Assembly (NCBI GenBank): GCA_028818565.1
Contig: JAPPNV010000028.1
Location: 1 to 35,190 of the forward strand
Reading direction: 5' to 3'
Length of the DNA stretch: 35,190 bases
Source of the DNA: Rhodospirillales bacterium
GTDB lineage: Bacteria > Pseudomonadota > Alphaproteobacteria > UBA828
Shown: in pieces, positions 1 through 24,921 of the stretch
How the letters are laid out: every line of letters starts with the position of its first letter
Position numbering within the stretch: the first letter of the stretch is position 1
Notes under the pieces: model-generated
The model's database searches: none
What the model was told of the DNA's origin: nothing
The model's input: only the letters and a program-made list of their open reading frames with translations
Position numbers and translations under genes: made by a program

Positions 1-1
1 G

Positions 2-178
2 GCGGCGGCGCTCAGGAAGGACATGCCGGAACGCGAGCTCGCCGCCCATCTGGGCACCGCCGGCGCCGCGCCGGACGCGGTCCGGGTGAGGGAAGAGGAG
101 ATCCGCAACAGGATCGCCCTCGAGGAGGAAAAGCAGGCCGCCCTGCGAATGAGCCGGGACCGGGGAATGTCGATGTAG
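2..178 (+). CDS. C-terminal fragment of an unrecognised charged protein (5' end outside window)
   Basis: An open frame enters from the left edge and stops at TAG 176-178, giving the last 58 residues of a protein. The fragment is rich in Glu, Arg and Ala (for example VREEEIRNRIALEEEKQAAL) and ends in SRDRGMSM, so it is probably a helical or coiled-coil tail. I do not recognise a family. The tails of relaxases and other mobilisation proteins can look like this, and it lies in what appears to be an island, but that is only a guess. The codon choice is strongly GC3-biased like the chromosome. The competing frame on the opposite strand (12-251) is an arginine/proline-rich shadow. Confidence 0.5.
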   Translation, partial: AAALRKDMPERELAAHLGTAGAAPDAVRVREEEIRNRIALEEEKQAALRMSRDRGMSM

Positions 179-348
179 GCATGGAAAACCGCAACGGCTT
201 GGCTTCGTCGAAGTCCGGGGATTTGAGGCACTTCTGGACCGTCATCAACAACCGCGGAAATGAACGAACGATAGGCCCCTAACTCCGCGTAGCGGCGTAG
301 TTCAAAGCATTCGCCATCCGCAGGACGATCCGAGGCGTTATTTCGACC

Positions 349-485
349 GTAAGCGCCGCGCCGTTACTCTTGTTGACGGGTGACACCCGGGATTGTCGGG
401 GAGATGTTCCAGGGCATCAGGTCGTCGATGCGTGACATGGGGTGCATGTCGACGATCCGGCGCAGGGTGAGGGCGCGGCGCTTAC
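349..485 (-). mobile_element. 137-bp miniature element derived from an IS66-family insertion sequence
   Basis: A perfect 14-bp inverted repeat bounds the segment: GTAAGCGCCGCGCC at 349-362 and its reverse complement at 472-485. With three mismatches the match extends to about 22 bp. IS66-family ends characteristically begin GTAA, and the element contains the last codons of an IS66 TnpC-type transposase read on the minus strand. The simplest reading is an internally deleted, non-autonomous (MITE-like) derivative keeping both ends and the tnpC tail. No 8-bp target duplication is seen: the flanks are tttcgacc on the left and gctggttt on the right. The stretch 179-348 to its left holds only a 33-codon frame (181-282) without a convincing ribosome site. 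Confidence 0.6.
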
Positions 486-495
486 GCTGGTTTCG
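364..495 (-). pseudogene. Remnant of IS66 transposase (TnpC) C-terminal tail
   Basis: Read on the minus strand, this frame ends LTLRRIVDMHPMSRIDDL, then MPWNI, then about 14 further residues to TAA at 364-366. That pattern, a helix followed by HP-x-(S/N)-R-(I/L)-D-(E/D)-L-(L/M)-PWN, is the hallmark of the IS66 TnpC C-terminal element. Only about 43 codons are left. The N-terminal zinc finger, the DDE catalytic domain, and TnpA and TnpB are absent. The frame has no start of its own and abuts the end of the lipoprotein gene, so it is a dead fragment inside the miniature element. Confidence 0.65.
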
Positions 496-504
496 GCAAT
501 GTCG

Positions 505-2922
505 TTACTGGAGCCTGCGTGCACCGAAGGAGCCGACTAAGCCTGCATCACCGGTACTCGCACCAAAGGTGCCAGCAACGCCCGTCGGATGGTCGGAAGC
601 TGTCAGGCCGTTACCGTAGAATGCGGCCGCCCAGCTGCCCTGCCACGCGTCGTTTGTCCCCGCAGCTACAACCGATCCGGTTACCGGCAGTGCCCCCCAC
701 GGGTCGTTCCGCATTGGATCAATGGCTGCCAGCTGCAGTTGCAGGGCTGTCGGTAGCGACGAGGTGGGCTCCTCGTAGGTAATGTTTCGCACGAATCCAC
801 TGACCGAGCCTGGATCAAAGATCGTGCCGAAGTTAGCAGTGAGAGTAACAGCACCCTCAAAGGAGCCGGTGTCGGCACCTGCTGTGGTAGGTGCGCGGTA
901 GTACATACCGACGGTAGAGCCGCTGTAGGTTGCGCTATCGGTAAGTGCAGTGATGGCTTGCATGTCGAACGGGTCTCCTCCGCCGGCAAGCACACCAAAG
1001 CCAATAGGATCGAATTCTGTGACGTTCTCCGGTACGTACAACCAGTACCCGAATGTCAGGTGATCAACGGTCGCAACAGGATTGCTGTATGTGGGGTATA
1101 ATACTACTGCTTCGCCGCCGTCATCAGGTAGAAAAGCGACTTGTGATCGCGGATGCCATCCGTTTTCACCTTGCTCAAAGTTGCACGCAAAAGACTCGCT
1201 TTCGCAAGTGAAGATGCCGGCTCGACCGTCCAGAGAGCCATGCAAGCCGGGCTCAGGATACGGAGAAAAGCTGATGCCTTGCCAGTCATGACCTGCACGC
1301 GGGTCAGGCACATCGTCAAAAGCGATCACCTGCTCCAGTACACCGTAGCCAACCCAAGGCTGCCCCAGGGTCTCGCTATCGTCCGCATCGGTTGCAAACA
1401 CGGCAGTAAAGGTACCGGCTTCGCTGTAGTTGTTGCGTCCCTCAAACAACCGCCAGTGCTCACCCAGACCATGTCCGTGGTCTTCTGTCTCAGCAATAAT
1501 ACTGCGTCCTTGATAGGAGACAAGCGGGTGGAAAATCTCAGCTGCACTCATTATTGAAGCGCCGATGACCAGCGCATTACTGTCATCGTGGTACGGGAGC
1601 GCATGGGCATAGCGTGGTGGTGAGGTCAGAGTGACCATGGAGTGACTGGCGCCGGAGATTGCAGGAGTGGCGCGCTCAGCTTCAGCCTCAAGCGTGTCTG
1701 CTATGGCGGAAGCGATGTCAGAGCGCTCTGCCGGCACCTCACTCTCTTCCCCTCGTGCGCCGAATGCACCCGTGATGCCGTCGCGGTGGAAGACGCCACC
1801 GGCCTCCTGTTGTCTCGGACCGTAGAATGCGCCGCTGATCGTTCTGGGTGCTCCGTCAGTGAATGCACCGTCGGTCAGTGCAAGATCACTCCAGTGCATG
1901 TCCGGATGTCTAATCCCTCCTGTCATGTCATATATGTGAGTGAATGAGACATCGACATCAGGGTCGGAAAGATCATCGATGTCGACCGTTGCCTCACCGA
2001 GTACCGGACCGGAAGAAGGAGCCTCGTATGATCCTACATCCCAGCCGGTCATGATGCCGGCCCAGCTGGCAGAGCCACTACCTGTCGGATTTGTGGCACT
2101 GTATAGACCGTCTGAATAAGCCTCAGCGTAATGATCATCCCAGAGTGTAAACTGTTGCTCGTCACATGCCTCAACACTCGCTAGCGCACAACTGCGACCT
2201 CGTAATACAATAAATCGGCTGTAATCGAGAAATGCCCAGTACTGCTCTCCGATTTGGCGCTCGTACCCCGCATCAGATTCATCACGGAGATCATACATTA
2301 TCTGCATGAGACCAACGCCGTTGTGCGCAAGTACGGGATTAAAGGAGAATACATCCGATAACTCAGTAATGGGTTCGAGGGATGCTTCCACATTTTCAGG
2401 TCGTTCGGATATCTCCGCAGCGCTGTCCCCTGGGCGGGTAACAGAGAAACCGTGCGTTAGTCGTCGGTTGATGGAATTTAGCGTGGCCAGAGCGTGGTTC
2501 ACTGTCATCGTAAGCGTCGGAGTGCCTTCGCTGAATTGCTGCCACTTCGTAATGAGCGGATTGCTTGCAATGTCGTTGTTGTAGGCATCGGAGTACCCGA
2601 CGGTTGCCGCGCCTCCTGTTGAGGTGACAGTGACGGTGCCGTCTGCGGCCTCAATCACCGAAACCGCGCACGCTGCTCCACCGGTCGGGCACGTCAGGAC
2701 TACATTGCCGAGCGTCCTTGAGCCGCCGGGCACAAGTGTGACGGGTTCGGCCGTGGTCTCCAGACCGTGGTCGGGGACATCGCCAAGAGAAACAGTCGTT
2801 TGCTGTGGTTCAGCCTGAGGCGGAGGCATGCCTGAATTTGTTGTCGTGCCAGAACTATCTAGGCAACCACTCAGTGCAAGCGCCGGGACCGCGACGAGTA
2901 GCAACGTGCTGATGCGCTTCAT
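505..2922 (-). CDS. Large surface lipoprotein with two transferrin-binding-protein-like beta-barrel domains
   Basis: The 805-residue protein starts with a signal peptide ending in lipobox LSGC (lipidated Cys at residue 20). The ATG at 2922 is chosen because it begins this signal and has gggaga upstream; the frame itself opens further back. Residues about 60-110 are a small Thr/Val/Gly-rich beta domain. Two regions, about 285-395 and 665-805, end in the strand pattern typical of TbpB/factor-H-binding-protein-type barrels: AFYGP...GGVFHRDGITGAFGAR and AAFYGN...GVAGTFGAS...GLVGSFGA. Several alphaproteobacteria encode such lipoproteins, which are exported by Slam and sit on the outer surface. The ligand is unknown; iron or haem proteins are only one possibility. 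No Slam, TonB receptor or iron gene is visible nearby. The gene is less GC-rich, with more mixed third positions, than its neighbours, which suggests recent acquisition. Confidence 0.75.
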   Translation of the reverse strand: MKRISTLLLVAVPALALSGCLDSSGTTTNSGMPPPQAEPQQTTVSLGDVPDHGLETTAEPVTLVPGGSRTLGNVVLTCPTGGAACAVSVIEAADGTVTVTSTGGAATVGYSDAYNNDIASNPLITKWQQFSEGTPTLTMTVNHALATLNSINRRLTHGFSVTRPGDSAAEISERPENVEASLEPITELSDVFSFNPVLAHNGVGLMQIMYDLRDESDAGYERQIGEQYWAFLDYSRFIVLRGRSCALASVEACDEQQFTLWDDHYAEAYSDGLYSATNPTGSGSASWAGIMTGWDVGSYEAPSSGPVLGEATVDIDDLSDPDVDVSFTHIYDMTGGIRHPDMHWSDLALTDGAFTDGAPRTISGAFYGPRQQEAGGVFHRDGITGAFGARGEESEVPAERSDIASAIADTLEAEAERATPAISGASHSMVTLTSPPRYAHALPYHDDSNALVIGASIMSAAEIFHPLVSYQGRSIIAETEDHGHGLGEHWRLFEGRNNYSEAGTFTAVFATDADDSETLGQPWVGYGVLEQVIAFDDVPDPRAGHDWQGISFSPYPEPGLHGSLDGRAGIFTCESESFACNFEQGENGWHPRSQVAFLPDDGGEAVVLYPTYSNPVATVDHLTFGYWLYVPENVTEFDPIGFGVLAGGGDPFDMQAITALTDSATYSGSTVGMYYRAPTTAGADTGSFEGAVTLTANFGTIFDPGSVSGFVRNITYEEPTSSLPTALQLQLAAIDPMRNDPWGALPVTGSVVAAGTNDAWQGSWAAAFYGNGLTASDHPTGVAGTFGASTGDAGLVGSFGARRLQ

Positions 2923-3405
2923 TGGAAGGGATCTCCCGCATGTGACCGCCAAAGCACCGGCTGGCGTCGGGCCGGTGCCATCATCACACGAGGCTATCGT
3001 GAGATCCCGACTATTCACCATGCCAAGGGAGCTACCCTCGGCCGGATACAGGCTCTTGTATTCGTCGGGCGACCCGACAGAGCGGGCAGCCTCGTAGATG
3101 ATGGCAAGAGAAACGGTGACGCAGTTGGTCACGGGTGTCAATGTTGCCCGGCGCACCAAGGAGACCACTGTGCTTGATCGGGATAAGGTTGGGGTTGCCG
3201 CTTCTTCCGGCGAGTTATCCGGCACTCATCGGCAAAGGAGCGGGAGACCATGCCCGCGCGCGCTCACCCCCAAGCGGGGATTAGGGCCTGATCCGTTCGG
3301 ATTAGTTGAGGATTTGAGGTGGGTGCCCCTCGGCGATCTTGCAAGAAGTTCACCGAGGGGCTTTGCCGGTGACGGTCTAATCAACCTGACGCTGAGACGG
3401 CCCCA
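2923..3405. other. 483-bp non-coding stretch upstream of the lipoprotein gene
   Basis: No gene is supported here. Two perfect inverted repeats stand out. GCACCGGC/GCCGGTGC (2954-2961 and 2971-2978) lies in the lipoprotein leader, about 30 bp before its start. GCCCCTCGG/CCGAGGGGC (3325-3333 and 3353-3361) has no T-run, so a terminator role is uncertain. A 13-codon mini-frame on the plus strand (3250-3291) has a strong ribosome-binding sequence (AGGAGCGGGAG) but no recognisable product; it may be the stump of a lost gene or a leader peptide. I see no convincing Fur box. Confidence 0.5.
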
Positions 3406-3759
3406 ATGTCGCTCAATCCGTTGCGCCACTCCATTCTTTCCGGTGCCCGCGCCTGGTCCTTTCTGGAGGCGATCGATGCGGCGGAGGCGGAGACTTGCCG
3501 CGAGGCGGGCTGCCGAGACTGTCCCGTCAGGCTGCGCAGCGCGCCGTATCCGCGCAAGCCGTACAGTCTGGCAGCGGAGTTGCGAGACCAGGGCACGCGG
3601 CGCTTCAGCCTCTGCTGTTCGGTGTGCCGACGCCGGGGGCGGCATCCCTCGGTGCGTTTCTTCGGGCGCCGCTTCCATCTGGGAGCCCTGTTCGTTCTGT
3701 TGAGCGCGCCGGTGCTGAGCAACAACCCGCCTCTTGATGTATCCAAGGGATGCACACGC
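3406..3759 (+). pseudogene. Truncated zinc-ribbon protein of the kind found with mobile elements
   Basis: The first ~105 residues look like a real protein: a helical start, then two cysteine pairs (CREAGCRDC and CCSVC) around YPRKP, then the block RRGRHPSVRFFGRRFHLGAL followed by a hydrophobic stretch. From memory, the RR-x-x-x-PSVRF-x-GR-x-x-LGA block belongs to a small family of zinc-ribbon, helix-turn-helix proteins of mobile regions, normally about 200 residues; I could not check this. The recognisable part ends near 3720 and the frame then runs without a stop through the antisense strand of the recombinase genes. I therefore read it as a gene cut off by the recombinase module. No strong ribosome site precedes ATG 3406. 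Confidence 0.45.
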
Positions 3760-4917
3760 TTACCGTTGAGTGCTCAGTCCCATGAGCTCCGCGATAGCCT
3801 CACCGATCCGCTCCGCGTCGGCCTCGATCTCCCGGTCTCCGAGATGGGCGTAGCGGAGCGTCATGCGGACGTTGGAATGACCGAGCATGCGGGAGACCAC
3901 CGGTACCGGCACGCCGTTCATCACCGCGTGGCTGGCATGCGTGTGCCGGAGGTCATGAAGCCGCACGTCCTCGATGCCGGCCTCCTCGCGGACCTGGTCC
4001 CAAATGGAGAGCTGGTAGCTGCGCGACCGGGACGGATTGAGCGGCGACGGAAACACGAAGAGGCTTTCCGTCCGCGGCTGGCGGTCGAGGATGCGCCTGG
4101 CTTGGGCGTTGAGCGGTACCCGTCGCGGCCCCGTCTTGGAATCGGCCAGAACCAACCCGTCCGCCCGGACCTCCGACCAGCGAAGCCCGAGGATCTCGCC
4201 CCTGCGGCAGCCGGTGAGCAGAAGCAGCCGGACGATGTCCGCCTGCTGGCGGCTGCCCTCTCCCTTCCGCCGGTCCAGCGCCCGGTGCAGCCGGGCAACT
4301 TCCTCGTGCGACAGGAAGCGCGTGAGTTTCGGTCGGCGGTTGGACGCGATGCCCGCGGCCGGGTTCTTCTCTACATACCCCCTGGCGATGGCGAAGTTCA
4401 TGATCTGGCGCAGGAGCCCGAAGCCCTTGTTGGCACCGCCGGGCGCGGTCGCGCTGTAGGCGTCGAACCATTTCCTGACCTCGGCCGGGGCGATCCGGTC
4501 CAGCGGCTTCGAGCCGAAGGCCGGCAACAGCCGTCCCTCGAGCGTGCACAGCATGCCTCTCCGCGTCGCCGGCTTGTAGCGGTGGAAATGCGCCTCCTTC
4601 CATTCGCCCTCCACGAAATCCCGGAAGAGCGGGACGGCACGCGCCGGGCGGGCATGCGCCGCGGGCGCCGGGTTTGCCCGGCGCTCATGGCACGACCTTC
4701 GTGCCTCGGCCACGGTCATCGTCGAGACCGGCCCGAGCGAAATACGCTTCGTGCGCCCCTCGATCTCCTCCAACAGAACGTATGTCTTGCCGCCGGTCGG
4801 ACGGGCCCGGACTCCGAGGCCGGGCACGGTTCTGTCCCAAACGGTATATTCCCGCTCGCCGGGACGGAGGCGCGCGATGGCGGCGTCGGTGAGCTTCCTG
4901 CGATCCCTTGCCGGCAT
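3760..4917 (-). CDS. Tyrosine recombinase (P4-type phage/island integrase), second of a tandem pair
   Basis: The 385-residue site-specific recombinase probably integrates or excises the surrounding element. An N-terminal DUF4102-like arm-binding domain (residues 8-80) is followed by a core-binding SAM-like domain (about 95-190) and the catalytic domain. The full catalytic set is visible: Arg238 in TGCRRGEI, Lys261 in DSKTGPRR, His321 and Arg324 in HDLRH, His347 in LGHSN, and nucleophile Tyr356 in TLRYAHL. The start follows the stop of the upstream recombinase by 3 nt, so the two are translationally coupled. The pair are clear paralogues in the catalytic domain but diverge in the N-terminal half, so they may bind different arm sites. 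It looks intact. Its stop lies where the zinc-ribbon fragment ends. Confidence 0.9.
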   Translation of the reverse strand: MPARDRRKLTDAAIARLRPGEREYTVWDRTVPGLGVRARPTGGKTYVLLEEIEGRTKRISLGPVSTMTVAEARRSCHERRANPAPAAHARPARAVPLFRDFVEGEWKEAHFHRYKPATRRGMLCTLEGRLLPAFGSKPLDRIAPAEVRKWFDAYSATAPGGANKGFGLLRQIMNFAIARGYVEKNPAAGIASNRRPKLTRFLSHEEVARLHRALDRRKGEGSRQQADIVRLLLLTGCRRGEILGLRWSEVRADGLVLADSKTGPRRVPLNAQARRILDRQPRTESLFVFPSPLNPSRSRSYQLSIWDQVREEAGIEDVRLHDLRHTHASHAVMNGVPVPVVSRMLGHSNVRMTLRYAHLGDREIEADAERIGEAIAELMGLSTQR

Positions 4918-4920
4918 TGC

Positions 4921-6045
4921 TCAGCTCCCGCCCAGCACCCTGCCGACGGTCTCGGCGGCATCGGCGATCATCGCGTCGGCGGGATGGGTATACTTGAGGG
5001 TGGTCTGGGGATCGGCGTGACCGAGCAGCCTGCCGATGGCGAGCACTGTCGCGCCCTGTCTCAACGCGATGCTGGCATGGGTATGCCGGAGGTCGTGAAT
5101 GCGGACATCCTCGATCCCCGCCTCGGCACGGACATCCCGCCAGAATCGGTCCAGCCAGTCCGCACCCTGCGGTCCTCCCGCACGGGGCGCCGGAAACATC
5201 CACCGACTTGCCCGCGGCAGCCGGTCGAGGATCGTCCGCGCGGGCCGCGACAGCCAGACGGTGCGGGGACCAGTCTTCGAATCGCGAAGGAACAGGCGGC
5301 CTTCCCGATAATCGGGCCAGCGGAGTGTCAGGATTTCGCTCTTGCGACAGCCGGTCAGCAGGAGAAGGCGGACGGCGGCGACCTGGGAGGGCCGCCGTTC
5401 CTCTCGTTCGGACAATACCGCCGACAGCCTTCGGATCTCTTCGTCCGACAGAAACCGCTCGCGCCCCTGGCGGCGGTAGCGTCTGATGCCCCGGCACGGG
5501 TTGGAGCCTTCGGGTCGAAGGCCCATGCGTTCCGCCTCCCGCATGATGACGGAGAGGATCGGCATCGACCGGTCCGCCGCGACCGGGGTAGCGGTCAGCG
5601 ACGCGAACCAGTTGCGCACCTCGCGACCGTCGATGTCGGCGACGTGCCGGCCCGCGAAGCAGGGCATGATCTGGTTCTTGAGATACCCACGGTTCACGGC
5701 GAGGGTGCGCGGTTTCCAGCGGCGCTCATGCTGCCGGAACACGGTCTCGGCGACGGCCTCGAAGAGCGCCTCCTCGGACCGGGGCGGGACGGCCTCGCCC
5801 CGGCGGATCGCGGCCAGCATGGTCTTGGCCAGGGAGTGCGCCTCGTCGATATTCATCGCGCCGGCGTCGCCGACGATCTTCCAAACGCGTTCGCCCCGGT
5901 GCTGGCAATGGACGAAGAAGCGCTTGCTCCCGGCAGGCGTCACCCGAACGCCGAAGCCCTTGAGCTTCCCGTCACGGATATCGTAAGTGGCTTTGCGCGG
6001 CGCGAGCGCCCGGATTCTCGCGTCGGTGAGGATGGGTCTGGGCAT
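4921..6045 (-). CDS. Tyrosine recombinase (P4-type integrase), first of a tandem pair
   Basis: The 374-residue integrase has a DUF4102-like N-terminal domain (GKLKGFGVRVTPAGSKRFF, residues 26-44), a core-binding domain (about 95-190) and a catalytic domain with Arg234 (TGCRKSEI), Lys257 (DSKTGPR), His317/Arg320 (HDLRH), His343 (LGHAD) and Tyr352 (TLKYTH). All catalytic residues are present. The ATG at 6045 has GGGAG about 8 nt upstream. It is the first gene of a two-recombinase operon. The 100 bp upstream contain an inverted repeat (GTTGCAG 6065-6071, CTGCAAC 6104-6110) that could be a binding or regulatory site. Recombinase-in-trio (RIT) elements carry three such genes; only two are here. 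Confidence 0.9.
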   Translation of the reverse strand: MPRPILTDARIRALAPRKATYDIRDGKLKGFGVRVTPAGSKRFFVHCQHRGERVWKIVGDAGAMNIDEAHSLAKTMLAAIRRGEAVPPRSEEALFEAVAETVFRQHERRWKPRTLAVNRGYLKNQIMPCFAGRHVADIDGREVRNWFASLTATPVAADRSMPILSVIMREAERMGLRPEGSNPCRGIRRYRRQGRERFLSDEEIRRLSAVLSEREERRPSQVAAVRLLLLTGCRKSEILTLRWPDYREGRLFLRDSKTGPRTVWLSRPARTILDRLPRASRWMFPAPRAGGPQGADWLDRFWRDVRAEAGIEDVRIHDLRHTHASIALRQGATVLAIGRLLGHADPQTTLKYTHPADAMIADAAETVGRVLGGS

Positions 6046-6145
6046 TTCCGTTCTCCCGTTTGCGGTTGCAGCCGGGGAAGGAACGGTTGACCATTCCGCC
6101 CGTCTGCAACTCCATACAGGAGGAAAAACGACCCTGAGTCAGATA

Positions 6146-6165
6146 GTTAGCACCGCCAGGTGCGC
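6146..6165. other. Inferred right junction of the integrated element
   Basis: The LLM oxidoreductase reading frame loses family resemblance around here (after VHTVRR, near 6165) and stops at 6147-6149. A short perfect inverted repeat, GCACC-gcca-GGTGC (6150-6163), lies at that point and could be the strand-exchange core. Recombinase-mediated insertion into the LLM gene would place the other attachment site, with the missing LLM end, to the left of this window. The matching copy is therefore not visible and the exact crossover base is not established. Confidence 0.3.
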
Positions 6166-6731
6166 CGCACGGTGTGCACGGTCTCGCCCCCCAGCAGGAT
6201 GGGCGGATGCGGCTTCTGCACCGGCTTGGGCCAGGACCAGCTCGGCTCGAAGGACGTGAATTCGCCCTCGTAGCTGGCTTCGTCTGCAGCCCAGAGCGCC
6301 TGCATGGCCTTGACCCGATCCTCCATGACCCGAAAGCGGGTCTCGAAGCGGGTGCCGTGGTGCTCCATCTCCTCCGCGTTCCAGCCCGCGCCGATACCGA
6401 AGTCGAAGCGCCCGCCGGAGACCAGGTCGAGGCTCGCCACCGCCTTGGCGGTGACGATGGGGTCGCGCTCGGTGACGAGACAGATGCCCGTGCCAAGGCG
6501 GAGCGTGCTGGTCACCGCCGCCGCCGCGGCAAGGCCCACAAAGGGGTCGAGTGTGTGGGAATATTCCTTCGGCAGCTCGCCACCGCCGCGCCAGGGCGAG
6601 CGCCGGCTGGCGGGGATGTGGGTGTGCTCCGGCACGAAGAGCGAGTCGAACCCGCGTTCCTCGAGCGCCGGCGCGAGCTCGGTCAGCGCGATGCAGTAGT
6701 CGGTGGCGAAGATGACGGCGCCGATCTTCAT
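6147..6731 (-). pseudogene. LLM-class F420-dependent oxidoreductase, 3'-truncated
   Basis: The remaining 194 residues are a typical luciferase-like monooxygenase start: MKIGAVIFATDYCIALTELA, LFVPEHTHIP, RLGTGICLVTERDP, ASLDLVSGGRFDFGIGAGWN, and the PHPPILLGGE strand. Family members run to about 280-300 residues; after GGE-TVHTVRR this one ends abruptly in TWRC-stop, so the last third of the barrel is missing. The start ATG 6731 has GGGAG about 10 nt upstream. Such enzymes use reduced F420 or FMN for hydride transfer, but this copy is probably inactive. The lost part probably lies at the far end of the island. It is divergent from the short-chain dehydrogenase across a 150-bp gap. Confidence 0.75.
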
Positions 6732-11469: not shown

Positions 11470-12285
11470 TCAGGGGGAAAGGGCGCGACGATCGTATAGC
11501 TGAAGAATCGCGGCGGCGGTCTCTTCGATCGAACGGTGGGTCACGTCGATCACCGGCCATCCCGCCTCTGCGTACAAGCGCCGCGCCTGCCGCACTTCCT
11601 CCTCGACCTGAAGGGGGTCCACATAGGCGGTTTCGCCGATGTCGCCGATCATGCGCATGCGGCTTCGCCGGATATCGATCAGCTGTTCCGGGTGACAGTT
11701 GAGGCCAACCACCAGCGCACCCTTCGGCGCCGCAAGCTCCGGCGGGAGCGGGCTACCGGGCACCACCGGCACGTTGGCCGCCTTGAGGCCGCGATTGGCG
11801 AGGTAGAAGCAGGTCGGGGTTTTCGAGGTCCGTGACACGCCGACGAGCACGATATCCGCCTCCCGCAGCGATGTCGGCGAGTGCCCGTCGTCGTGGGCGA
11901 GCGCGTAGTTCATCGCCTCGATGCGCTTGAGATAAGCTTCGTCCATGACGTGCTGGCTGCCCGGCTGATTGCGGCTCTCGATGCCGAGGAAGCCGCTCAA
12001 CGCCGCGATCGCCGTGTCGAGCAGCGGGATGCAGGGCACGTTGATGCGCCGGCATTCCCCGTGTAGGAGGGCCTGGAGCTGCGGGTCGACGAGGGTGAAC
12101 ATCACAACACCGGGCTCCGCCTCGACATGGTCGAGAACTTGCCGTAGCTGACTCTCGGTGCGCACCAGCGACCACAGGTGCTCGACTGCATCCACGCCCT
12201 GGAATTGCGCTGCTGCTGCCCGCGCTATCGTGATGCAGGTCTCGCCGGTGGCGTCCGAGACCAGATGCAGATGAAACCTTCGCAT
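11470..12285 (-). CDS. ppsR: Pyruvate phosphate dikinase / PEP synthase regulatory protein (DUF299)
   Basis: This bifunctional ADP-dependent kinase and phosphate-dependent phosphorylase switches PPDK or PEP synthase off and on by threonine phosphorylation. The 271 residues begin FHLHLVSDATGETC; the nucleotide loop is GVSRTSKTPT; LVGLNCHPEQLIDIRRSRM and DVTHRSIEETAAAI are family signatures. ATG 12285 is chosen because it starts at the conserved LHLVSD strand; the upstream in-frame extension (to 12378) lies in the putative origin. Which target enzyme it controls cannot be told from this window. Its homologue flanks the origin in Caulobacter and Rickettsia, opposite hemE. Confidence 0.92.
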   Translation of the reverse strand: MRRFHLHLVSDATGETCITIARAAAAQFQGVDAVEHLWSLVRTESQLRQVLDHVEAEPGVVMFTLVDPQLQALLHGECRRINVPCIPLLDTAIAALSGFLGIESRNQPGSQHVMDEAYLKRIEAMNYALAHDDGHSPTSLREADIVLVGVSRTSKTPTCFYLANRGLKAANVPVVPGSPLPPELAAPKGALVVGLNCHPEQLIDIRRSRMRMIGDIGETAYVDPLQVEEEVRQARRLYAEAGWPVIDVTHRSIEETAAAILQLYDRRALSP

Positions 12286-12434
12286 GAACCTGCCACGACC
12301 CTCTGTGCTGCGCCCGCGCGGGCGCGATTTCTCAACGTACTCGTGTGGGGAATTCGTGGGCAACGCCCCGCAGCCCACCGACCCCCAGCCTATCCCCAGC
12401 TTATCCGATCACGCGTATCACATGACTGTCATAA

Positions 12435-12443
12435 TGGGGATAA
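12435..12443 (-). promoter_or_regulatory. DnaA-box-like 9-mer
   Basis: On the minus strand the sequence reads TTATCCCCA, one mismatch from the TTATCCACA consensus. It is the best of the DnaA-box candidates in the gap. Weaker ones are at 12390-12398 (CTATCCCCA) and 12344-12352 (TTCCCCACA on the minus strand). It fits the low-affinity box type described at alphaproteobacterial origins. Confidence 0.45.
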
Positions 12444-12645
12444 CGCTCCCACGACCGGGCCCGGCACGCGCCCTTCCACACTATCCTCGTTTTCTCACGA
12501 CCATTGAAAGACCCCGCAGCGGTGGCCATTCTTGGCTTACTCACTTTGAGCCGCTCTCTGTCGTGACCCAGGTAATCATTCATCCGGCCCTTGGGATGAA
12601 CGCCACAATCCCCTCCTCCGCTCCAACAACATCATCAACCCCACC

Positions 12646-12660
12646 TTAAAATTGGTTTAA
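12646..12660. promoter_or_regulatory. Perfect CtrA binding box, TTAA-N7-TTAA
   Basis: TTAA at 12646-12649 and TTAA at 12657-12660 are separated by exactly 7 bp (AATTGGT), the full consensus for the cell-cycle regulator CtrA. It lies 45 bp before the hemE start, at the hemE side of the predicted origin. In Caulobacter, CtrA boxes in the same place silence the origin and repress a hemE-proximal promoter. TTAA is rare in such GC-rich DNA, which makes a chance match unlikely. Confidence 0.7.
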
Positions 12661-12675
12661 TGAAGATAGTCTGAC

Positions 12676-12699
12676 GAATCCGGGGACAAGAGCCGACTC
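12676..12699. promoter_or_regulatory. Pair of GANTC (CcrM methylation) sites before hemE
   Basis: GAATC (12676-12680) and GACTC (12695-12699) fall within 24 bp, immediately upstream of the hemE GTG. GANTC is the target of the alphaproteobacterial cell-cycle adenine methyltransferase CcrM. Clustering beside a CtrA box in a predicted origin suggests methylation-state control of hemE or of initiation, but two short sites could also be chance. Confidence 0.4.
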
Positions 12700-12705
12700 G
12701 CAACC

Positions 12706-13758
12706 GTGGACACGCACATCAAACCGCTTCTCGCGGCGCTTCGGGGAGAGACGCAGCATCCGCCGCCGCTCTGGCTCATGCGCCAGGCGGGGCGCTACCT
12801 GCCTGAGTACCGCGCGCTGCGAGCGAAGGCGGGGTCCTTCCTCGATCTCTGCTATGACCCGGCGTTGGCGGCGGAGGCCTCGCTTCAGCCCCTGTGCCGT
12901 TTCCCTCTCGACGGCGTGATCCTGTTCTCGGACATTCTGGTGGTGGCCGAGGCGTTGGGTGTGAGGCTCTGGTTCGAGGAGGGCGAGGGGCCGCGCCTGG
13001 AGGCAATCCCGGAGGGTGGGTCCGTGCCCGCATTCGATGCGGAACGCCAGACGCGGCACCTTGCGCCCGTGTACGAGGCGATGGAGCGGGTCGTGGTGGC
13101 GGCGCCTGCCGGGGCGACGGTCCTGGGTTTCGCCGGGGCGCCGTGGACGCTTGCGACCTACATGGTCGGAGGCGGTCGAAGCCGGGATTTCGCCGCCGTC
13201 AAGGGTTGGGCCTATCGCGATCCTGCGACCTTCGGGCGGCTGATCGAGACAGTAGGCGAGGCGGTAGCGGCCCATCTGATCGCCCAGCTCGACGCCGGGG
13301 CCGATGCGGTTCAGATCTTCGACAGCTGGGCCGGTGCGTTGCCCGAGAGCGAGTTCGCGCGCTGGAGCATCGAGCCCATTCGGCAAATCGTGGTCGAGGT
13401 GAGGGCCGCGCATCCCCAGGCGCCGATCATCGGCTACCCGCGCGGGGCGGGTGTGGCCTGCGAGCGCCTCGCAGCCGAGACCGGGGTGAACGCGATCTCC
13501 ATCGACAGCACCGTGCCCCCGACCTGGGCGGCAGAACACTTGCAGCCGCAGTGCACGGTGCAGGGCAACCTCGATCCCGTGGCATTGTTGGCGGGCGGCG
13601 ACGCGCTGCGGCGTGCCGCCGAGGGCATTTTAAGGGCGCTCGGGGACGGCCCCTTCGTGTTCAATCTCGGCGAAGGCGTGCTGCCCCAGACCCCGCCCCA
13701 GCATGTCGCGGAACTTGCCGACCTCGTGCACACGTGGCCGGACAGGACCGGGCGATGA
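12706..13758 (+). CDS. hemE: Uroporphyrinogen decarboxylase
   Basis: HemE removes four carboxyl groups from uroporphyrinogen III to give coproporphyrinogen III in haem synthesis. The 350-residue TIM-barrel protein has the signature LMRQAGRYLPEYR (residues 24-36), the catalytic Asp strand PLDGVILFSDI, GFAGAPWTLATYMVGG, and the late block IIGYPRGAG. The start is the GTG at 12706, giving MDTHIKPLL; the ribosome site is weak (GGGGACAAGAG some distance upstream). The promoter region coincides with the CtrA box and GANTC sites. The stop overlaps hemH as ATGA, so the genes form an operon. Confidence 0.95.
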   Translation: MDTHIKPLLAALRGETQHPPPLWLMRQAGRYLPEYRALRAKAGSFLDLCYDPALAAEASLQPLCRFPLDGVILFSDILVVAEALGVRLWFEEGEGPRLEAIPEGGSVPAFDAERQTRHLAPVYEAMERVVVAAPAGATVLGFAGAPWTLATYMVGGGRSRDFAAVKGWAYRDPATFGRLIETVGEAVAAHLIAQLDAGADAVQIFDSWAGALPESEFARWSIEPIRQIVVEVRAAHPQAPIIGYPRGAGVACERLAAETGVNAISIDSTVPPTWAAEHLQPQCTVQGNLDPVALLAGGDALRRAAEGILRALGDGPFVFNLGEGVLPQTPPQHVAELADLVHTWPDRTGR

Positions 13759-15252: not shown

Positions 15253-16356
15253 GTGACTGACCGAGCCGGGGTCTTGTCCAGCACCGCGATCGGGGCGTTG
15301 ATCGAATGCGGCGCGGTCGCCGCGGACGAACCCATCGGCGCGCCCCAAATCCAGCCCGCGAGCCTCGATCTCAGGCTCGGGCCGATCGCATACCGCGTGC
15401 GCGCGAGCTTCCTGCCGGGCCGCGAGAGCGTGAGCGCCAAGATCGCGCGTCTCGGCATGCACGAGATCGATCTCACGCCCGGCGCCGTGCTGGAGCGCGG
15501 CTGCGTCTACATTGTGCCGTTGATGGAACGCCTCGCGCTCGCGCCCGATGTTGCCGCCCACGCCAACCCCAAGAGCTCCACCGGGCGGCTCGACATCTTC
15601 ACCCGGCTGATCGCCGACGAAGCGCACGAGTTCGACCGCGTGCAGGCCGGCTACCGGGGGCCGCTCTATGCCGAGGTCTCGCCCCGCACCTTCAGCATCG
15701 TGGTCCGCGCTGGCAGCCGGCTCAACCAGATCCGCTTCAAGCGGGGCGATCCCGGCTATACCGAAGGCGCGCTCGAGCGCCTGCACGCCGAGCGCCGGCT
15801 GGTCGAGGGCGAGGTCGCGCGCGGCGGCTTCTCGGGCGGCCTGCCGCTCTCCGTCGATCTCGCCGGCACGGGCGCTGGCCTCGTTGGCTGGAAGGCGAAG
15901 CGCCACACCGACCTGATCGATATCGACGTGGTCGGCCGCTACGACCCGGCCGCTTTCTGGGAGCCGATCGAGCGGCCCTCCGGCGGCGGCGTGATCCTGA
16001 ACCCGGACGATTTCTACATCTTGGCGTCGAAGGAAGCCGTGCGAATCCCGCCGGACCATGCCGCCGAGATGGTGGCCTATGACACCCTTGTCGGTGAGTT
16101 TCGCGCCCATTACGCCGGCTTCTTCGATCCCGGCTTCGGTCACGACGAAGCGGGCGGCGGCGGCACCCGCGCGGTGCTCGAGGTGCGCTCCCACGATGTG
16201 CCCTTCGTGATCGAGGACGGCCAGACCATCGGCCGCCTCGTGTTCGAGCCGCTGACCGAGCGCCCGGCCGAGCTCTACGGCCATGGCATCGGCTCCTCCT
16301 ACCAGCGCCAGGGGCTTGCGCTCGCCAAGCAGTTCAAGCGTTCCGCAGTGGTATGA
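15253..16356 (+). CDS. dcd: 2'-deoxycytidine 5'-triphosphate deaminase, long (two-domain) form
   Basis: This enzyme deaminates dCTP to dUTP, feeding dTMP synthesis. The 367-residue form typical of Alphaproteobacteria has two dUTPase-like halves: residues about 1-175 contain IQPASLDLRLGPIAYRVRA and the active-site strand ANPKSSTGRLDIFTRLI, and residues about 180-367 repeat the fold (DIDVVGRYDPAAFW, FDPGFGHDEAGGGG). Short Dcd proteins are about 190 residues. The start is GTG 15253, with GGGGAG about 8-9 nt upstream. It sits 20 bp after hemJ, probably in the same transcript. Its place between the hem genes and rho is not part of the usual core order. Confidence 0.88.
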   Translation: MTDRAGVLSSTAIGALIECGAVAADEPIGAPQIQPASLDLRLGPIAYRVRASFLPGRESVSAKIARLGMHEIDLTPGAVLERGCVYIVPLMERLALAPDVAAHANPKSSTGRLDIFTRLIADEAHEFDRVQAGYRGPLYAEVSPRTFSIVVRAGSRLNQIRFKRGDPGYTEGALERLHAERRLVEGEVARGGFSGGLPLSVDLAGTGAGLVGWKAKRHTDLIDIDVVGRYDPAAFWEPIERPSGGGVILNPDDFYILASKEAVRIPPDHAAEMVAYDTLVGEFRAHYAGFFDPGFGHDEAGGGGTRAVLEVRSHDVPFVIEDGQTIGRLVFEPLTERPAELYGHGIGSSYQRQGLALAKQFKRSAVV

Positions 16357-19205: not shown

Positions 19206-20132
19206 CTAAACGGCTTTGAGGGGCGGTCGAGGCGTTGGGGCCGCGCGCAGGCGACCGATGAGCGCGTCGAGCTGCTCGGGCTCCTTGTAGGCGATCGTCA
19301 TGCGCCCGCCCGCGCCACGCCTGGCCGGGTCGATGGTGACCCTGAGGCCAAGCGCGCGGCTGAGGTCGTCCTGCAGCGCCCTGATATTGGGGTCGGCCGC
19401 ACGTGTCTTCTGCTGGCGGGTGCGCCCGTCTGCGGCCCGGCGCACCAGGGCTTCCGTCTGGCGCACGGTAAGCCCCAGGCGCACCACCGTATCCGAAAGC
19501 GCCGCCGGGTCGGCCGCCGCCAGTAGCGCCCGCCCGTGGCCCGCGCTCAGCGTGCCGTCGCCGACGAGCGTCTTTACCTTGTCGGGCAGGTCGAGCAGGC
19601 GCACCGTGTTGGCCACGTGGCTGCGGGACTTGCCGAGCGCGCTCGCCACGTCCTCCTGGCGGTGGTCGAATTCGCGGATCAGGTGGCGGTAGGCCGTGGC
19701 TTCCTCCAGGGGGTTAAGGTCGCTGCGCTGCAGGTTCTCCACCAGCGCAATCTCGATGCTCTCGGGATCGCTCAGCTGGCGCACCACCGCCGGCAGCTCG
19801 TGCAGTCCCGCCCGCTGCGCTGCCCGCCACCGTCGCTCGCCTGCGACGATTTGGTAAGGCGCGCCGTCTTCGTCGCCGCCGGGGCCGGGCCGCACCACCA
19901 GGGGCTGAACCACGCCCTTCTCGCGGATCGAGGCGGCCAGGCTCTCGATCTCGGCCTCGTCGAAGCGCTGGCGCGGCTGGTTGGGATGGGGTGCCAGGTG
20001 TTCGATGGGGATGGAGAGCAACGCACCCTCCCGCGCGCCGGTCGTGGACGGCTCCATGGTTTCGCCGAGAAGGGCGGCGAGGCCCTTGCCGAGACCGCGC
20101 TGGCGCGGCTGGCCGCTCGCATCGGTTGTCAT
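19206..20132 (-). CDS. parB: Chromosome partitioning protein ParB
   Basis: ParB is the CTP-dependent clamp that loads at parS and spreads to build the segregation complex near the origin. The 308 residues begin QRGLGKGLAALLGE (ParA-interacting N-terminus). Next come the ParB/Spo0J CTP-binding region with PHPNQPRQRFDEAEIESLA and GERRWRAAQRAGL, ENLQRSDLNPLEEA, then the helix-turn-helix (DVASALGKSRSHVANTVRLL) that reads parS, and a C-terminal dimer domain ending ALIGRLRAAP. It starts 8 nt after the parA stop. A matching parS lies 1.4 kb away inside rsmG. Confidence 0.95.
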   Translation of the reverse strand: MTTDASGQPRQRGLGKGLAALLGETMEPSTTGAREGALLSIPIEHLAPHPNQPRQRFDEAEIESLAASIREKGVVQPLVVRPGPGGDEDGAPYQIVAGERRWRAAQRAGLHELPAVVRQLSDPESIEIALVENLQRSDLNPLEEATAYRHLIREFDHRQEDVASALGKSRSHVANTVRLLDLPDKVKTLVGDGTLSAGHGRALLAAADPAALSDTVVRLGLTVRQTEALVRRAADGRTRQQKTRAADPNIRALQDDLSRALGLRVTIDPARRGAGGRMTIAYKEPEQLDALIGRLRAAPTPRPPLKAV

Positions 20133-20140
20133 GCTGCGCT

Positions 20141-20980
20141 TTACTTCTCTATTCGCTCGCGCCGCAGCAGCTCGCCGGCCAAATGGGCGTAGGCCTGGGC
20201 GCCGGGGCAGCGGAAGTCATGGAGCAAAACGGGAATGCCGTAAGACGGCGCCTCGGATACCCGCACGTTGCGCGGGATGATGGTCTCGTACACCGTATCG
20301 CCGAGGTGCGTGCGGACGTCGTCCCGCACCTGGGCGGAAAGGTTGTTCCGCTTGTCGTACATGGTTAGCACGATGCCTTGCACATGGAGCGCGGGGTTGA
20401 AGGCGGCACGCACGCGCTCCACGATGCTGAGCACCTGGCTCAGCCCTTCGAGCGCCAGAAACTCGCACTGCAGCGGCACCAGCACGGAGTCCGCGGCGAC
20501 CAGGGCATTAACAGTTAGCATGCCAAGAGAGGGCGGGCAGTCGATCAGCACGTGCGACAGCGCGCTCTCGCGGGCGAGGGCCGGCTCCATCGCTTCCCTC
20601 AGGCAGTGCTGCGGGCGGGCGCTCTGGGATAGTTCGATCTCGGCGCCGGCGAGGTCGCGGGTCGCCGGCACGACGGAGAGTCCCGGCACCGTGGTCTGCC
20701 GCCGGGCCTCAGCGAGCGGCGCGCCTTGGAGCAGACCGTAGCTGCCGGGCGCGCGCTCCGCCGGCGGGATGCCGAGACCGGTGCTGGCGTTTCCCTGCGG
20801 GTCGAGATCGAGCAGCAGTACCGGCCGCCCTGCCGCCGCGAGTGCGGTGCCCAGGTTGATCGCAGTGGTGGTCTTGCCGACGCCGCCCTTCTGGTTCGCG
20901 ACCGCAATGATGCGAGGCCGCCCCGCCGGCGCCGGCGGGGGCTGAGCGTCGGTCTCAAGAGCGGCGGCGCCGTTCGACAT
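20141..20980 (-). CDS. parA: Chromosome partitioning ATPase ParA
   Basis: This 279-residue deviant Walker-type ATPase moves ParB-parS complexes. After a 21-residue Ala/Pro-rich lead it shows [20 protein letters not shown] (Walker A with the signature lysine), [16 protein letters not shown] (Walker A'), and [17 protein letters not shown] (Walker B), then the conserved [16 protein letters not shown] and [16 protein letters not shown]. The ATG at 20980 lies 26 nt inside the rsmG 3' end, a common coupled arrangement. It is a chromosomal rather than plasmid type, judging by the rsmG-parA-parB order and the absence of replication genes. Confidence 0.95.
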
Positions 20981-21584
20981 CGCTGATCCTCAGTATCCGC
21001 GCCTCGGCCGCCGTCTGGCTGGGGACGATGTCCGCCCTGAAATCCCACCGTCGGCGGGCCTGCTCCAACTCGCTCCGGTAGCGGCGACCCTTCGGGAATA
21101 TACAATATGTATGAGAGTCCAGCACGGGGAAAACTAGGTCTAGCAGATCGACCAGCGGTGCGCAGGCACGGGCGACGATCGTGCCGGCGGGGCTGAGTGC
21201 GGCCTGGACGTCCGGCGCCTCGAAGCGGCCTTCGATCACGGAGACCCGAGTGCCGGTGGCGCCGGCTAACTCGCGCAGGAAGGCGCAGCGCTTGCCATTG
21301 GCCTCGACCAGGGAGACCCGGCGGCTGCCGTCGAGGATCGCCAGCACCATGCCGGGGAAGCCGGCACCGCTGCCAATGTCCACCGTGTGGCCCAACGGAT
21401 CATCGGCGAGCAGGGGGGCGAGCTGCGCCGAATCCAGAAAGTGGCGGGTCCAGAGTGCGGGCAGGGACGCCGCCGAGACCAGGTTGACACGTTGCTGGCG
21501 TTGCCGGAGGAGGGTTTCGTATATCTCGAGCCGCTCGCGTGTTTCACGTGAAACATCGCGCCGGAAGGCCTCGCCCGGCTCCAT
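20955..21584 (-). CDS. rsmG: 16S rRNA (guanine-527-N7) methyltransferase RsmG (GidB)
   Basis: RsmG methylates G527 of 16S rRNA using S-adenosylmethionine. The 209 residues contain [34 protein letters not shown], the SAM-binding loop [31 protein letters not shown], and [13 protein letters not shown]. The N-terminal DVSRETRE is encoded by a parS sequence. It follows the mnmG stop by 5 nt and overlaps parA by 26 nt. Confidence 0.95.
21540..21555. promoter_or_regulatory. parS: parS centromere site (perfect 16-bp palindrome)
   Basis: TGTTTCACGTGAAACA matches the bacterial parS consensus at every position. It lies within the first codons of rsmG and encodes part of its DVSRET sequence, an arrangement seen in other bacteria with parS inside gidB. 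It is the only site of this quality in the window; the other CACGTG hexamers lack the TTTC/GAAA arms. Confidence 0.95.
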
Positions 21585-21589
21585 CCGGT

Positions 21590-23491
21590 CTACCCGCGCC
21601 CGGCCTCCGCCGCGCTCTTGCGGGGGTCCGTCTTGCGTACGTGGGCGAGCAGCGCAGTCAGCGCCGCAGGCGTCACCCCCGGCACCCGCCCTGCCGCGCC
21701 GAGGGTCGCAGGCCGCGCGGCGGCAAGACGCTGGCGCATCTCGTTGGAAAGACCGCCCACCGTGTCGAAGCGAAGGTCCCCCGGTAGCCTGAGCGCTTCG
21801 TCACGGCGGAAGGCCGCGATGTCCGCCTCCTGCCGCTCCACATAACTCCGGTAGTGCGCGTCGTTCTCCAGGGCTTGGACGATCTCGGGCTCCAGCGCGG
21901 CCAGCCCCGGCCAGAGTGTCGCGAGTTGCTCCAGGGCCACGTCGGGATAACCGATCAGCTCGCGCGCTGTGCGCTTGCGCCCGTCCCTGTTCGCCGGGAT
22001 CCCGTGGCGGCGCAGCACATCAGGCGTGGCGTTGAGCGAGTCGAGCAAGTCCGCCGCCCGGCTGAGTGCCGCGTTCTTGGCGGCGAAACGCCGCGCCCGC
22101 TCGTCGCCGACGCAGCCTGCCTCAATGCCGCGCGCCGTGAGTCGGCGGTCGGCGTTGTCCGGCCGGAGCCGGAGTCGATACTCGGCCCGCGACGAGAACA
22201 TGCGGTAGGGCTCGCTCACCCCTTGCGTCACAAGGTCGTCGATCAGGACGCCGATGTAGCCCTCGGCGCGGTCCAGCGTGAACGGCCCGCTGCCGCCCGC
22301 TGCCCGCGCGGCGTTAATGCCGGCGACGACGCCCTGGGCCGCGGCCTCCTCGTAACCGGTGGTGCCGTTGATCTGGCCGGCGAGATAGAGGCCTGCGATT
22401 CGGTCGGTCTCCAGCGCCGGGCTCAGCTCGCGCGGGTCCACGTGGTCGTATTCGATGGCGTAGCCCGGCCGCAGGATCGCCGCGCGCTCCAGCCCAGGAA
22501 TTGTCGCTACCAGCGCCCGCTGCACGTCTTCGGGCAGCGCCGTCGAGATCCCGTTGGGGTAGACCGTGCGGTCGTCGAGCCCCTCCGGCTCCAGGAAAAT
22601 CTGGTGCGAGGCACGCTCGGCGAAGCGCACCACCTTGTCCTCGATTGAGGGGCAGTAGCGGGGCCCGCGGCTCTCGATCGCGCCCGAGTACATGGGCGAG
22701 CGCGCGAGGTTGCGGCGGATGAGCTCGTGGCCCTCAGGCCGCGTGGCGGTGATGTGGCAGGGCACCTGCGCCCGCGTGATCGCGTTGGTGAGGAAGGAGA
22801 ATGGCTCGGGCGGCTCGTCGCCCTCCTGCGCTTCCAGTTCGGCCCAGTCGATGGTGTGCCCGTCGAGCCGGGGCGGAGTGCCGGTCTTCAGCCGGCCGAG
22901 GCGGAAGCCCAACCGCTCCAGGGTGAGCGCCAGCCCCGTCGCCGGCGCATCGCCCACACGTCCCGCCGGGATCTGCCGCTCCCCAATATGGATGAGCCCG
23001 CGCAGGAAGGTGCCCGTGGTGAGCACCACCTGCGGCGCTGGGATGAGCGCGCCGTCCCCAAGCATCACGCCGCGCACGCGGGGCCGTGCCTGTGCGGAGG
23101 CATCCAGCGCCAGGTCCTCGACCGTGCCCTCGCGGATCGTGAGGTTCGGCTGCGCCGCGAGCGCCGCCTGCATCGCCGCGCGGTAGAGCGCGCGGTCCTG
23201 CTGCGCCCGGGGCCCGCGCACCGCCGGCCCCTTGCTGCGGTTGAGCACGCGGAACTGAATCCCCGCCTCGTCGGCGACGCGGCCCACGAGCCCGTCGAGC
23301 GCATCCACCTCGCGCACAAGCGTGCCCTTGGCGAGACCGCCGATCGCCGGGTTGCAAGACATCGCGCCGATCGTGTCGCGCTTCTGGGTGATGAGCAGCG
23401 TCGCGGCGCTGGCGCGCGAGGCCGCCGCCGCGGCCTCGCATCCGGCGTGGCCGCCCCCGATCACGATCACATCGAAGCGCTCGCGGCTCAT
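21590..23491 (-). CDS. mnmG: tRNA uridine-5-carboxymethylaminomethyl modification enzyme MnmG (GidA)
   Basis: MnmG is the FAD-binding partner of MnmE in making cmnm5U/nm5U at the wobble base of several tRNAs. The 633-residue length is normal. [19 protein letters not shown] is the FAD dinucleotide fold, followed by [20 protein letters not shown] (family signature), [48 protein letters not shown], and a C-terminal helical domain. ATG 23491 has GGGAGGGCGG upstream. It lies 95 bp after mnmE in a probable operon, with rsmG 5 nt downstream. Confidence 0.96.
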
Positions 23492-23586
23492 GGCCGCCCT
23501 CCCGGCCGCCCAGTCCGCGGCTCGGCTCGTTGGGAACGGCGCCCCCTATAGGGCACACGCGTGCGTCCGTAAAGCGCCAAGCGTTT

Positions 23587-24921
23587 CTATTTGCCGATGC
23601 AGAAGTCGCGAAACACGAGGTCGAGCACGGCCTCCACGTCGACCCGCCCGGTAATACGGCCGAGCGCATGCGCCGCCAGCCTGAGCTCTTCCGCCAGCCG
23701 CTCGTCCGCCGGGCCTGCGATGGCGCGGGCGAGCGCGCCGCGGCACTCGATGGCCGCCTGCCGGTGCCGGGTGCGGGTGAGCGCGGGCGCGCCACCCGGC
23801 GGATAACGGCGTGCGATCTCCTCAGCCAGCGCCTCCAGCAGCGTTTCGATGCCGGCGCCGGTCAGGCAGGAGACTGCGAGCGTCGCGCGGCCGGCAATTT
23901 CGGCAGGGGCAGGGCCCGAAAGGAGGTCGGTTTTATTCAGCACGGGCAGCGCGTCGCCGCCCAGCAGCCCGAGGCTCTGCGCATCGGACTGCGGCCAAAG
24001 CGCGCCGTCGAAGACCACCAGCGAGAGGTCGGCGCTCGCCGCGCGGGCCAGAGCGCGCCGCACGCCTTCGCTCTCGATCTCGTCCTGGCTTTCCCGCAGG
24101 CCCGCGGTATCGGCGAGGGTGAGCGGCCAGCCCCCGAGGTCGAGCCGGACTTCGACGACGTCACGGGTGGTGCCGGCGCGGGTCGAGACGATGACCGCAT
24201 CCCTCCCCACTAAGCGATTGAGAAGGCGAGATTTTCCTGCGTTGGGCGCGCCCACGATGGCGATGCAGAAGCCTTCGCGCAGGCGCTCGCCCCGCCTCTC
24301 ATCATCGAGGTGGGCCGCAATCTCGGCTTCCAGCGCCGCGAGACCGGGCGCAGCCGTTGCCATCGGGTCCTCGCCCAGCTCCTGGTCCGAGAAATCGATG
24401 GCGGCCTCCACATTGGCCCGGAGCGTCATGAGCCGGTCGTGCCAGCCGTCGTAGAGATGGCGAAGCTCGCCCTCCGTCTGGCGGAGTGCCTGGCGGCGCT
24501 GGGCCTCGGTCTCGGCCGCAACCAAGTCTGCGATCCCCTCAGCTTGCGTGAGGTCGAGGCGGCCGGCCTCGAAGGCGCGCCTCGTGAACTCGCCGGGCTC
24601 CGCCGGGCGCAGGCCGGGGATCGCCGCGAGCGCCTTGCAAAGCGCGGCGATGACCGCGAGGCCGCCATGCACGTGGAACTCCGCCATGTCCTCGCCGGTG
24701 GCGCTGGCGGACGCGGGGAACCAGAGCGCCAGTCCCCGGTCGATCGGCTGGCCCGTTTCCGGCTCGCGGAACCGCCGGAGCGTCGCACGGCGCGGATCCG
24801 GCATTGGCTCACCAGCGATCCGCGTCAACGCCTCCGCCGCCGCGGGACCCGAAGTTCGGACCACGGCGATCCCGGCGCGTCCGCCGCCGGAAGACAGCGC
24901 GAAGATGGTATCGCCCGTCAT
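23587..24921 (-). CDS. mnmE: tRNA modification GTPase MnmE (TrmE)
   Basis: This 444-residue GTPase activates the wobble-uridine modification together with MnmG. The N-terminal formyl-THF-binding domain begins DTIFALSSGGGRAGIAVVR, with EFHVHGG and PGEFTRRAFEAGRLDLTQAE. The G domain shows G1 GAPNAGKS, the switch TRAGTTRDVVE, G3 DTAGLRE and G4 NKTD. The last four residues are CIGK, carrying the invariant C-terminal cysteine. Start ATG 24921 has a weak ribosome site but aligns with the family N-terminus. It begins 48 bp after the ferredoxin gene. Confidence 0.96.
   Translation of the reverse strand: MTGDTIFALSSGGGRAGIAVVRTSGPAAAEALTRIAGEPMPDPRRATLRRFREPETGQPIDRGLALWFPASASATGEDMAEFHVHGGLAVIAALCKALAAIPGLRPAEPGEFTRRAFEAGRLDLTQAEGIADLVAAETEAQRRQALRQTEGELRHLYDGWHDRLMTLRANVEAAIDFSDQELGEDPMATAAPGLAALEAEIAAHLDDERRGERLREGFCIAIVGAPNAGKSRLLNRLVGRDAVIVSTRAGTTRDVVEVRLDLGGWPLTLADTAGLRESQDEIESEGVRRALARAASADLSLVVFDGALWPQSDAQSLGLLGGDALPVLNKTDLLSGPAPAEIAGRATLAVSCLTGAGIETLLEALAEEIARRYPPGGAPALTRTRHRQAAIECRGALARAIAGPADERLAEELRLAAHALGRITGRVDVEAVLDLVFRDFCIGK

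Follow-up and report, generated by a model that had tools for sequence, protein, structure and literature searches.

Introduction

In Caulobacter the chromosomal origin Cori sits between hemE and a COG1806 (DUF299) gene (PMC1914354), and similar hemE-flanked gaps of about 400 bp have been predicted as origins in Rickettsia, Wolbachia, Ehrlichia and Anaplasma (PMC1914354). CtrA sites have not been seen in most other alphaproteobacterial origins (PMC4468827), and skew analysis is insufficient for several alphaproteobacteria (PMC1914354). A second described system is the DnaA-trio, 3'-GAT-5', which reads 5'-CTA-3' on the complementary strand and lies downstream of a DnaA box (PMC8235120, PMC8287927), box, spacer and trio together forming a described module (PMC8287927, PMC10721633). 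The middle adenine of the trio contacts Asn187 of Bacillus subtilis DnaA, and in B. subtilis guanine or thymine at this position lowers strand separation (PMC10721633). The search reported in PMC8287927 demanded the middle adenine, and its authors suggested that trios without one might exist.

Here we analyse a window of 35,190 nucleotides, the whole of one contig (C178) of a Rhodospirillales assembly (4.14 Mb, 464 contigs, 92% complete) whose closest named relative found was 'Rhodospirillales bacterium RHO1_bin_88' (HemE identity 80%). From the sequence comparisons described below we are highly confident that the gap between ppsR and hemE is the chromosomal oriC and the ortholog of Caulobacter Cori, as the original prediction had proposed, which would place oriC in an uncultured lineage.

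Results and Discussion

The ppsR-hemE gap and its conservation across the class

The gap is free of genes and separates two divergent clusters, as originally described: dnaQ, coaE, aroE, maf and ppsR on the minus strand to its left, and hemE, hemH, hemJ, a dCTP deaminase (15253-16356, between hemJ and rho, and absent from the original prediction) and rho on the plus strand to its right (all gene calls), with parB, parA, mnmG and mnmE farther right (Table 1; the starts of ppsR and hemE were set from conservation and family matches). In size and neighbours it corresponds to the alphaproteobacterial origin type, i.e. about 400 bp between hemE and a COG1806/ppsR gene. The same gap is present in 105 loci across Alphaproteobacteria (counting one duplicate and the copies from the window itself) and mostly measures 390-580 bp. 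Within these gaps DnaA boxes are strongly enriched, with TTATCCACA occurring 46 times (0.15 in shuffles), TTGTCCACA 31 times (0.35) and TTATCCCCA 23 times (0.3), and an unbiased k-mer count over 95 less redundant gaps ranked the DnaA box first among 9-mers. Moreover, near-consensus boxes favour particular places, with a strand typical of each: the minus strand in the first tenth of the gap and at 0.3-0.4, the plus strand at 0.2-0.3 and 0.4-0.5.

Two other parts of the window deserve mention. At its left end, positions 500-3200 are of lower GC, a tyrosine integrase lies at 4921-6045 (minus strand) and a same-genus contig aligns to the window from 6172 onward only, which together suggest that positions 1-6170 are an inserted island. 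Toward its right end, about 17 kb from oriC, lies a SPPY-type DNA methyltransferase (29398-30717, plus strand; DPFAGVGTT and TSPPY motifs), a region also found in same-genus genome G001 at about 87.5% nucleotide identity; it stands out in a genus in which searches found no CcrM (see below).

Table 1. Features of the ppsR-hemE gap and its surroundings (positions in the window)
Feature	Position	Strand	Basis or remark
Predicted oriC, intergenic region between ppsR and hemE	12286..12705	.	420 bases
ppsR (DUF299, COG1806)	11470..12285	-	NF003742, E=2e-98
hemE	12706..13758	+	TIGR01464, E=2e-111
DnaA box R1, TTCCCCACA	12344..12352	-	genus relatives carry TTGTCCACA or TTCTCCACA
DnaA box R2, CTATCCCCA	12390..12398	+	genus relatives carry TTATCCCCA
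Possible second box 11 bp after R2, TTATCCGAT	12401..12409	+	genus alignment; weak
DnaA box R3, TTATCCCCA	12435..12443	-	1 mismatch; best box of the window
Possible DnaA box R4, CCTTCCACA, core TCCACA	12472..12480	+	class-wide plus-strand box position; weak
AATCCCC element beside trinucleotide run (degenerate DnaA box)	12606..12614	+	family alignment
Trinucleotide run CAA CAA CAT CAT CAA	12624..12638	+	position homologous to CTA DnaA-trios of sister genera
AT-rich element, probable unwinding site	12645..12674	.	lowest duplex stability of any 30 bp in the 35 kb window
TTAA-N7-TTAA	12646-12660	.	inside AT-rich element; 0.01 expected in window
TTTAATGAAGATAGTCTG, most conserved gap block in genus	12656..12673	+	unique in assembly; overlaps AT-rich element
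Conserved box-like TTGTCCCCG, hemE side of AT-rich element	12681..12689	-	genus alignment
parB	19206..20132	-	gene call
parA	20141..20980	-	gene call
parS, TGTTTCACGTGAAACA	21540..21555	+	exact match

The DnaA boxes are degenerate and fixed in position

The window holds no exact match to TTATCCACA, and the one-mismatch TTATCCCCA occurs once in the gap, which agrees with the original description of its boxes as degenerate; individually these sites are weak. In the whole assembly TTATCCACA is found 3 times versus 10 for a reversed control pattern. Density by itself was rejected as a uniqueness test: the gap ranks first in the window on the strength of one site, and in the same-genus contig G001:C14 (302 kb) the eight best DnaA-box clusters do not include it. 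The dnaA locus was also considered as an alternative origin and rejected, with just one 1-mismatch box there.

What the boxes lack in spelling is matched by a fixed geometry that the original prediction had missed. The order, orientation and spacing (46-47 and 45 bp) of R1-R3 are the same in 7 distinct genus members, and at the R3 position genus relatives carry TTATCCACG, TTATCCCCG or TTATCCCCA. Many members of the class likewise carry a plus-strand box at the position of R4. As a cluster, the DnaA boxes are degenerate in this window, hold their positions across the genus and are enriched throughout the class. It had been proposed that initiation relies on weak, W-box-like TCCCCA sites, and three of the 16 TCCCCA motifs in the 35 kb do lie in the gap (12346 minus, 12393 plus, 12435 minus), where they are the cores of R1-R3. 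The proposal appears to be partly right: the sites are degenerate, but because genus relatives carry TTGTCCACA, TTCTCCACA or TTATCCCCA at the same positions, we read them as probable drifted versions of ordinary boxes rather than as a separate W-box set, while a W-box reading of the TCCCCA cores is possible.

A candidate opening module at the hemE-proximal end

The A/T-richer right end noted originally was confirmed, the ninth decile of the gap being 36% GC against mostly 50-76% in the rest of it, and the same end holds the least stable segment of the window. A family alignment of this hemE-proximal part gives the order AATCCCC, a short spacer, a trinucleotide run and an AT-rich stretch; neither the run nor the conserved block at its right (12656-12673) figured in the original prediction. 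In sister genera the run is CTACTACAACTACTACTA, i.e. canonical CTA units, whereas the window has CTC CAA CAA CAT CAT CAA at this position and the genus keeps CAACA[TC]CA; the trio strand of the window's run would be the minus strand. Of 95 gaps, 21 have a run of at least four C[TA][AT] units on the top strand and 2 have one on the bottom strand, against 0.5 in shuffles; most of these runs lie 80-110 bp before hemE. Outside the genus the count of units is 45 CTA, 26 CAA, 20 CAT and 6 CTT. CAN units are mixed with CTA across the class, and are nearly the sole kind in this genus. No match to the IHF consensus was found between 12201 and 12760.

On balance we somewhat favour a mechanism in which box, trio and AT-rich stretch form one opening module. 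DnaA would bind the left-hand degenerate array (R1 minus, R2 plus, R3 minus and possibly R4 plus) together with the element beside the trinucleotide run, and an ATP-DnaA filament would then extend onto one strand of the run, which would act as a DnaA-trio, and open the AT-rich element, where the helicase would be loaded. Sister origins would subsequently be moved by ParABS. Compared with the basal unwinding system (BUS), for which a DnaA box with at most two mismatches is expected within 16 bp of the run, the elements in the window are more degenerate than this limit of the published search (PMC8287927), although one relative (locus L003) has TCATCCGCA, with two mismatches, beside its run. Similarly, three or more consecutive trios with a middle adenine are found in the CTA runs of sister genera and not in the window, while an AT-rich stretch does directly follow the run.

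The leading alternative, to which we assign a somewhat smaller probability, is that the gap is oriC but the CAA/CAT run is no DnaA-trio and opening proceeds through the AT-rich element alone or another strand element; opening without a trio run has already been proposed for origins without recognisable trios. The missing middle adenine fits this alternative, given that thymine or guanine there lowers strand separation in B. subtilis (PMC10721633), as do the poor neighbouring boxes. However, the position, direction, length and neighbours of the run match those of the CTA runs in sister genera, and the mixing of CAN with CTA units elsewhere in the class also speaks for the trio. The run of this genus is a concrete candidate for the trio without a middle adenine suspected in PMC8287927, with its CTA-keeping close relatives as controls.

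At the position equivalent to Asn187 (assigned using segments of B. subtilis and E. coli DnaA as anchors), 28/30 alphaproteobacterial DnaA sequences carry Tyr, Leu being found in two genus members. Tyr is equally the residue of the sister genera whose trios are CTA, and by itself it therefore cannot account for the shift to CAA/CAT. The DnaA proteins of the genus (L148, L192-L198) additionally show changes in domain IV, namely GK or GN before RDHTT, YA for HA and RPRH for RPRQ, which go together with the drifted boxes, and one can speculate that the two are linked.

GC skew around the gap and nearby parABS

In a 230 kb contig of a low-GC member of the same family (G011) the cumulative skew is lowest at 131,764, inside hemE (130,926-131,939) and adjoining the gap. 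In the complete genome of a class relative (G030) the stretch from 1.62 to 3.60 Mb has negative skew and the remainder positive skew, with the flip at 3.60-3.62 Mb and a local minimum at 3,616,825, within about 15 kb of the gap at about 3.605 Mb. A second complete class relative (G033) has its local minimum at 2,159,928, about 48 kb from the gap; skew was noisy in G049, and in the same-genus contig G001:C14, which is uninformative in this respect, it was very weak with a minimum 103 kb away. KOPS-like GGGNAGGG showed no polarity pattern in G001:C14 or G049. In the window, parAB and a perfect parS, the latter missing from the original prediction, lie 7-9 kb from the gap, parS at 9 kb. The genes from parB to mnmE (19206-24921) are transcribed toward the gap and therefore head-on with the fork, if replication starts there.

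We considered whether the gap might merely hold divergent ppsR and hemE promoters with their regulatory sites, the origin lying elsewhere, for example farther along the parAB-mnmE side. Compatible with this are the weak boxes, none of exact consensus, and the distant skew minima of G001 and G033, which both fall on the hemE/par side. Nevertheless, DnaA boxes are enriched class-wide and have a fixed geometry, the skew minimum lies at the gap in G011 and close to it in G030, the same location is the established one of Caulobacter Cori (PMC1914354), and a search of the gap for sigma-70 promoter-like sites found none; we thus hold a promoter-only gap to be improbable. Terminator patterns were not found in the gap either. 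Synteny across the class, box enrichment, the skew of G011 and G030 and the nearby parABS all argue for the gap as the predicted oriC.

Searches of the genus found no CtrA, ChpT or CcrM

The original prediction also listed a CtrA box and GANTC sites. The motifs themselves are there, TTAA-N7-TTAA in the AT-rich element and GANTC at two places in the gap, 12676 and 12695, but the proteins that would use them were not found. Across 8 genus genomes (the window's own 92% complete, five others 93-99%) the best match to a Caulobacter CtrA query was 33-34%, with none above about 35%, whereas the same query finds 61-84% matches in most class relatives. ChpT (PF10090) was not found in these 8 genomes and is present in many sister genera, and the same holds for CcrM, searched with the RAMA domain (PF18755) and a full-length CcrM from a sister genome (G008). 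GcrA is present in the genus. As the assemblies are fragmented, gene absence here rests on the agreement among the eight genomes. Elsewhere in the family CtrA occurs in G009 and in G015, and other family contigs end near chpT. The copy in G015, a sister-genus genome (G015:C15, L255 3107-3709), has one internal TAA where orthologs have Tyr, which is either a decaying gene or an assembly error.

The gapped motif is moreover kept in just 3/7 genus members, and GANTC occurs in the window at 0.42 of expectation, with the control palindrome TCNGA also depleted (0.51). With CtrA, ChpT and CcrM not found in the 8 genomes, we rejected the CtrA site and GANTC as functional elements, and control through them is not supported; TTAA-N7-TTAA is more plausibly a piece of the AT-rich element. 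The genus seems to have lost CtrA and CcrM, control by either is unlikely in it, and the timing of initiation would be independent of CtrA and GANTC methylation. A Caulobacter-like origin controlled by CtrA and CcrM, with CtrA on TTAA-N7-TTAA, can draw on the exact motif in the AT-rich end and on the presence of GcrA, but is very improbable given the failure to find the three proteins, the poor conservation of the motif and the fact that most other alphaproteobacterial origins show no CtrA sites (PMC4468827). Because the class-wide position is kept in a genus in which searches did not find CtrA, ChpT or CcrM, an origin of the hemE-COG1806 type can apparently persist without them.

More tentatively, and with less confidence than we give to the opening module itself, the genus may use a deviant trio that lacks the middle adenine (3'-GTT/GTA-5') and is read by a DnaA carrying Tyr or Leu where B. 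subtilis has Asn187, at an origin freed of CtrA and CcrM control. If so, the sister genera with CTA trios and this genus would make a natural before-and-after pair.

Comparison with known systems

The locus resembles Cori of Caulobacter crescentus in its two flanking genes, its similar gap size, its weak DnaA sites, its AT-rich stretch and a parS within 10 kb (PMC1914354, PMC4468827). It differs in that searches of the genus turned up neither CtrA nor ChpT nor CcrM, that the gap is without the G-box TGATCCACA, and that a trinucleotide run stands beside the AT-rich element. Box element, short spacer, run and AT-rich stretch follow one another in the same order and direction as in the BUS of B. 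subtilis, although the units in this genus are CAA/CAT versus CTA, the adjacent boxes are very degenerate, and the genus DnaA has Tyr (Leu in two members) in place of the Asn187 that contacts the trio adenine. Finally, it shares with the predicted origins of Rickettsia, Wolbachia, Ehrlichia and Anaplasma the hemE-flanked gap and the small number of DnaA boxes, some of these origins also being without CtrA sites (PMC1914354). Unlike in those organisms, however, the genome here is of high GC, and the ppsR neighbour and the par cluster have been kept together.
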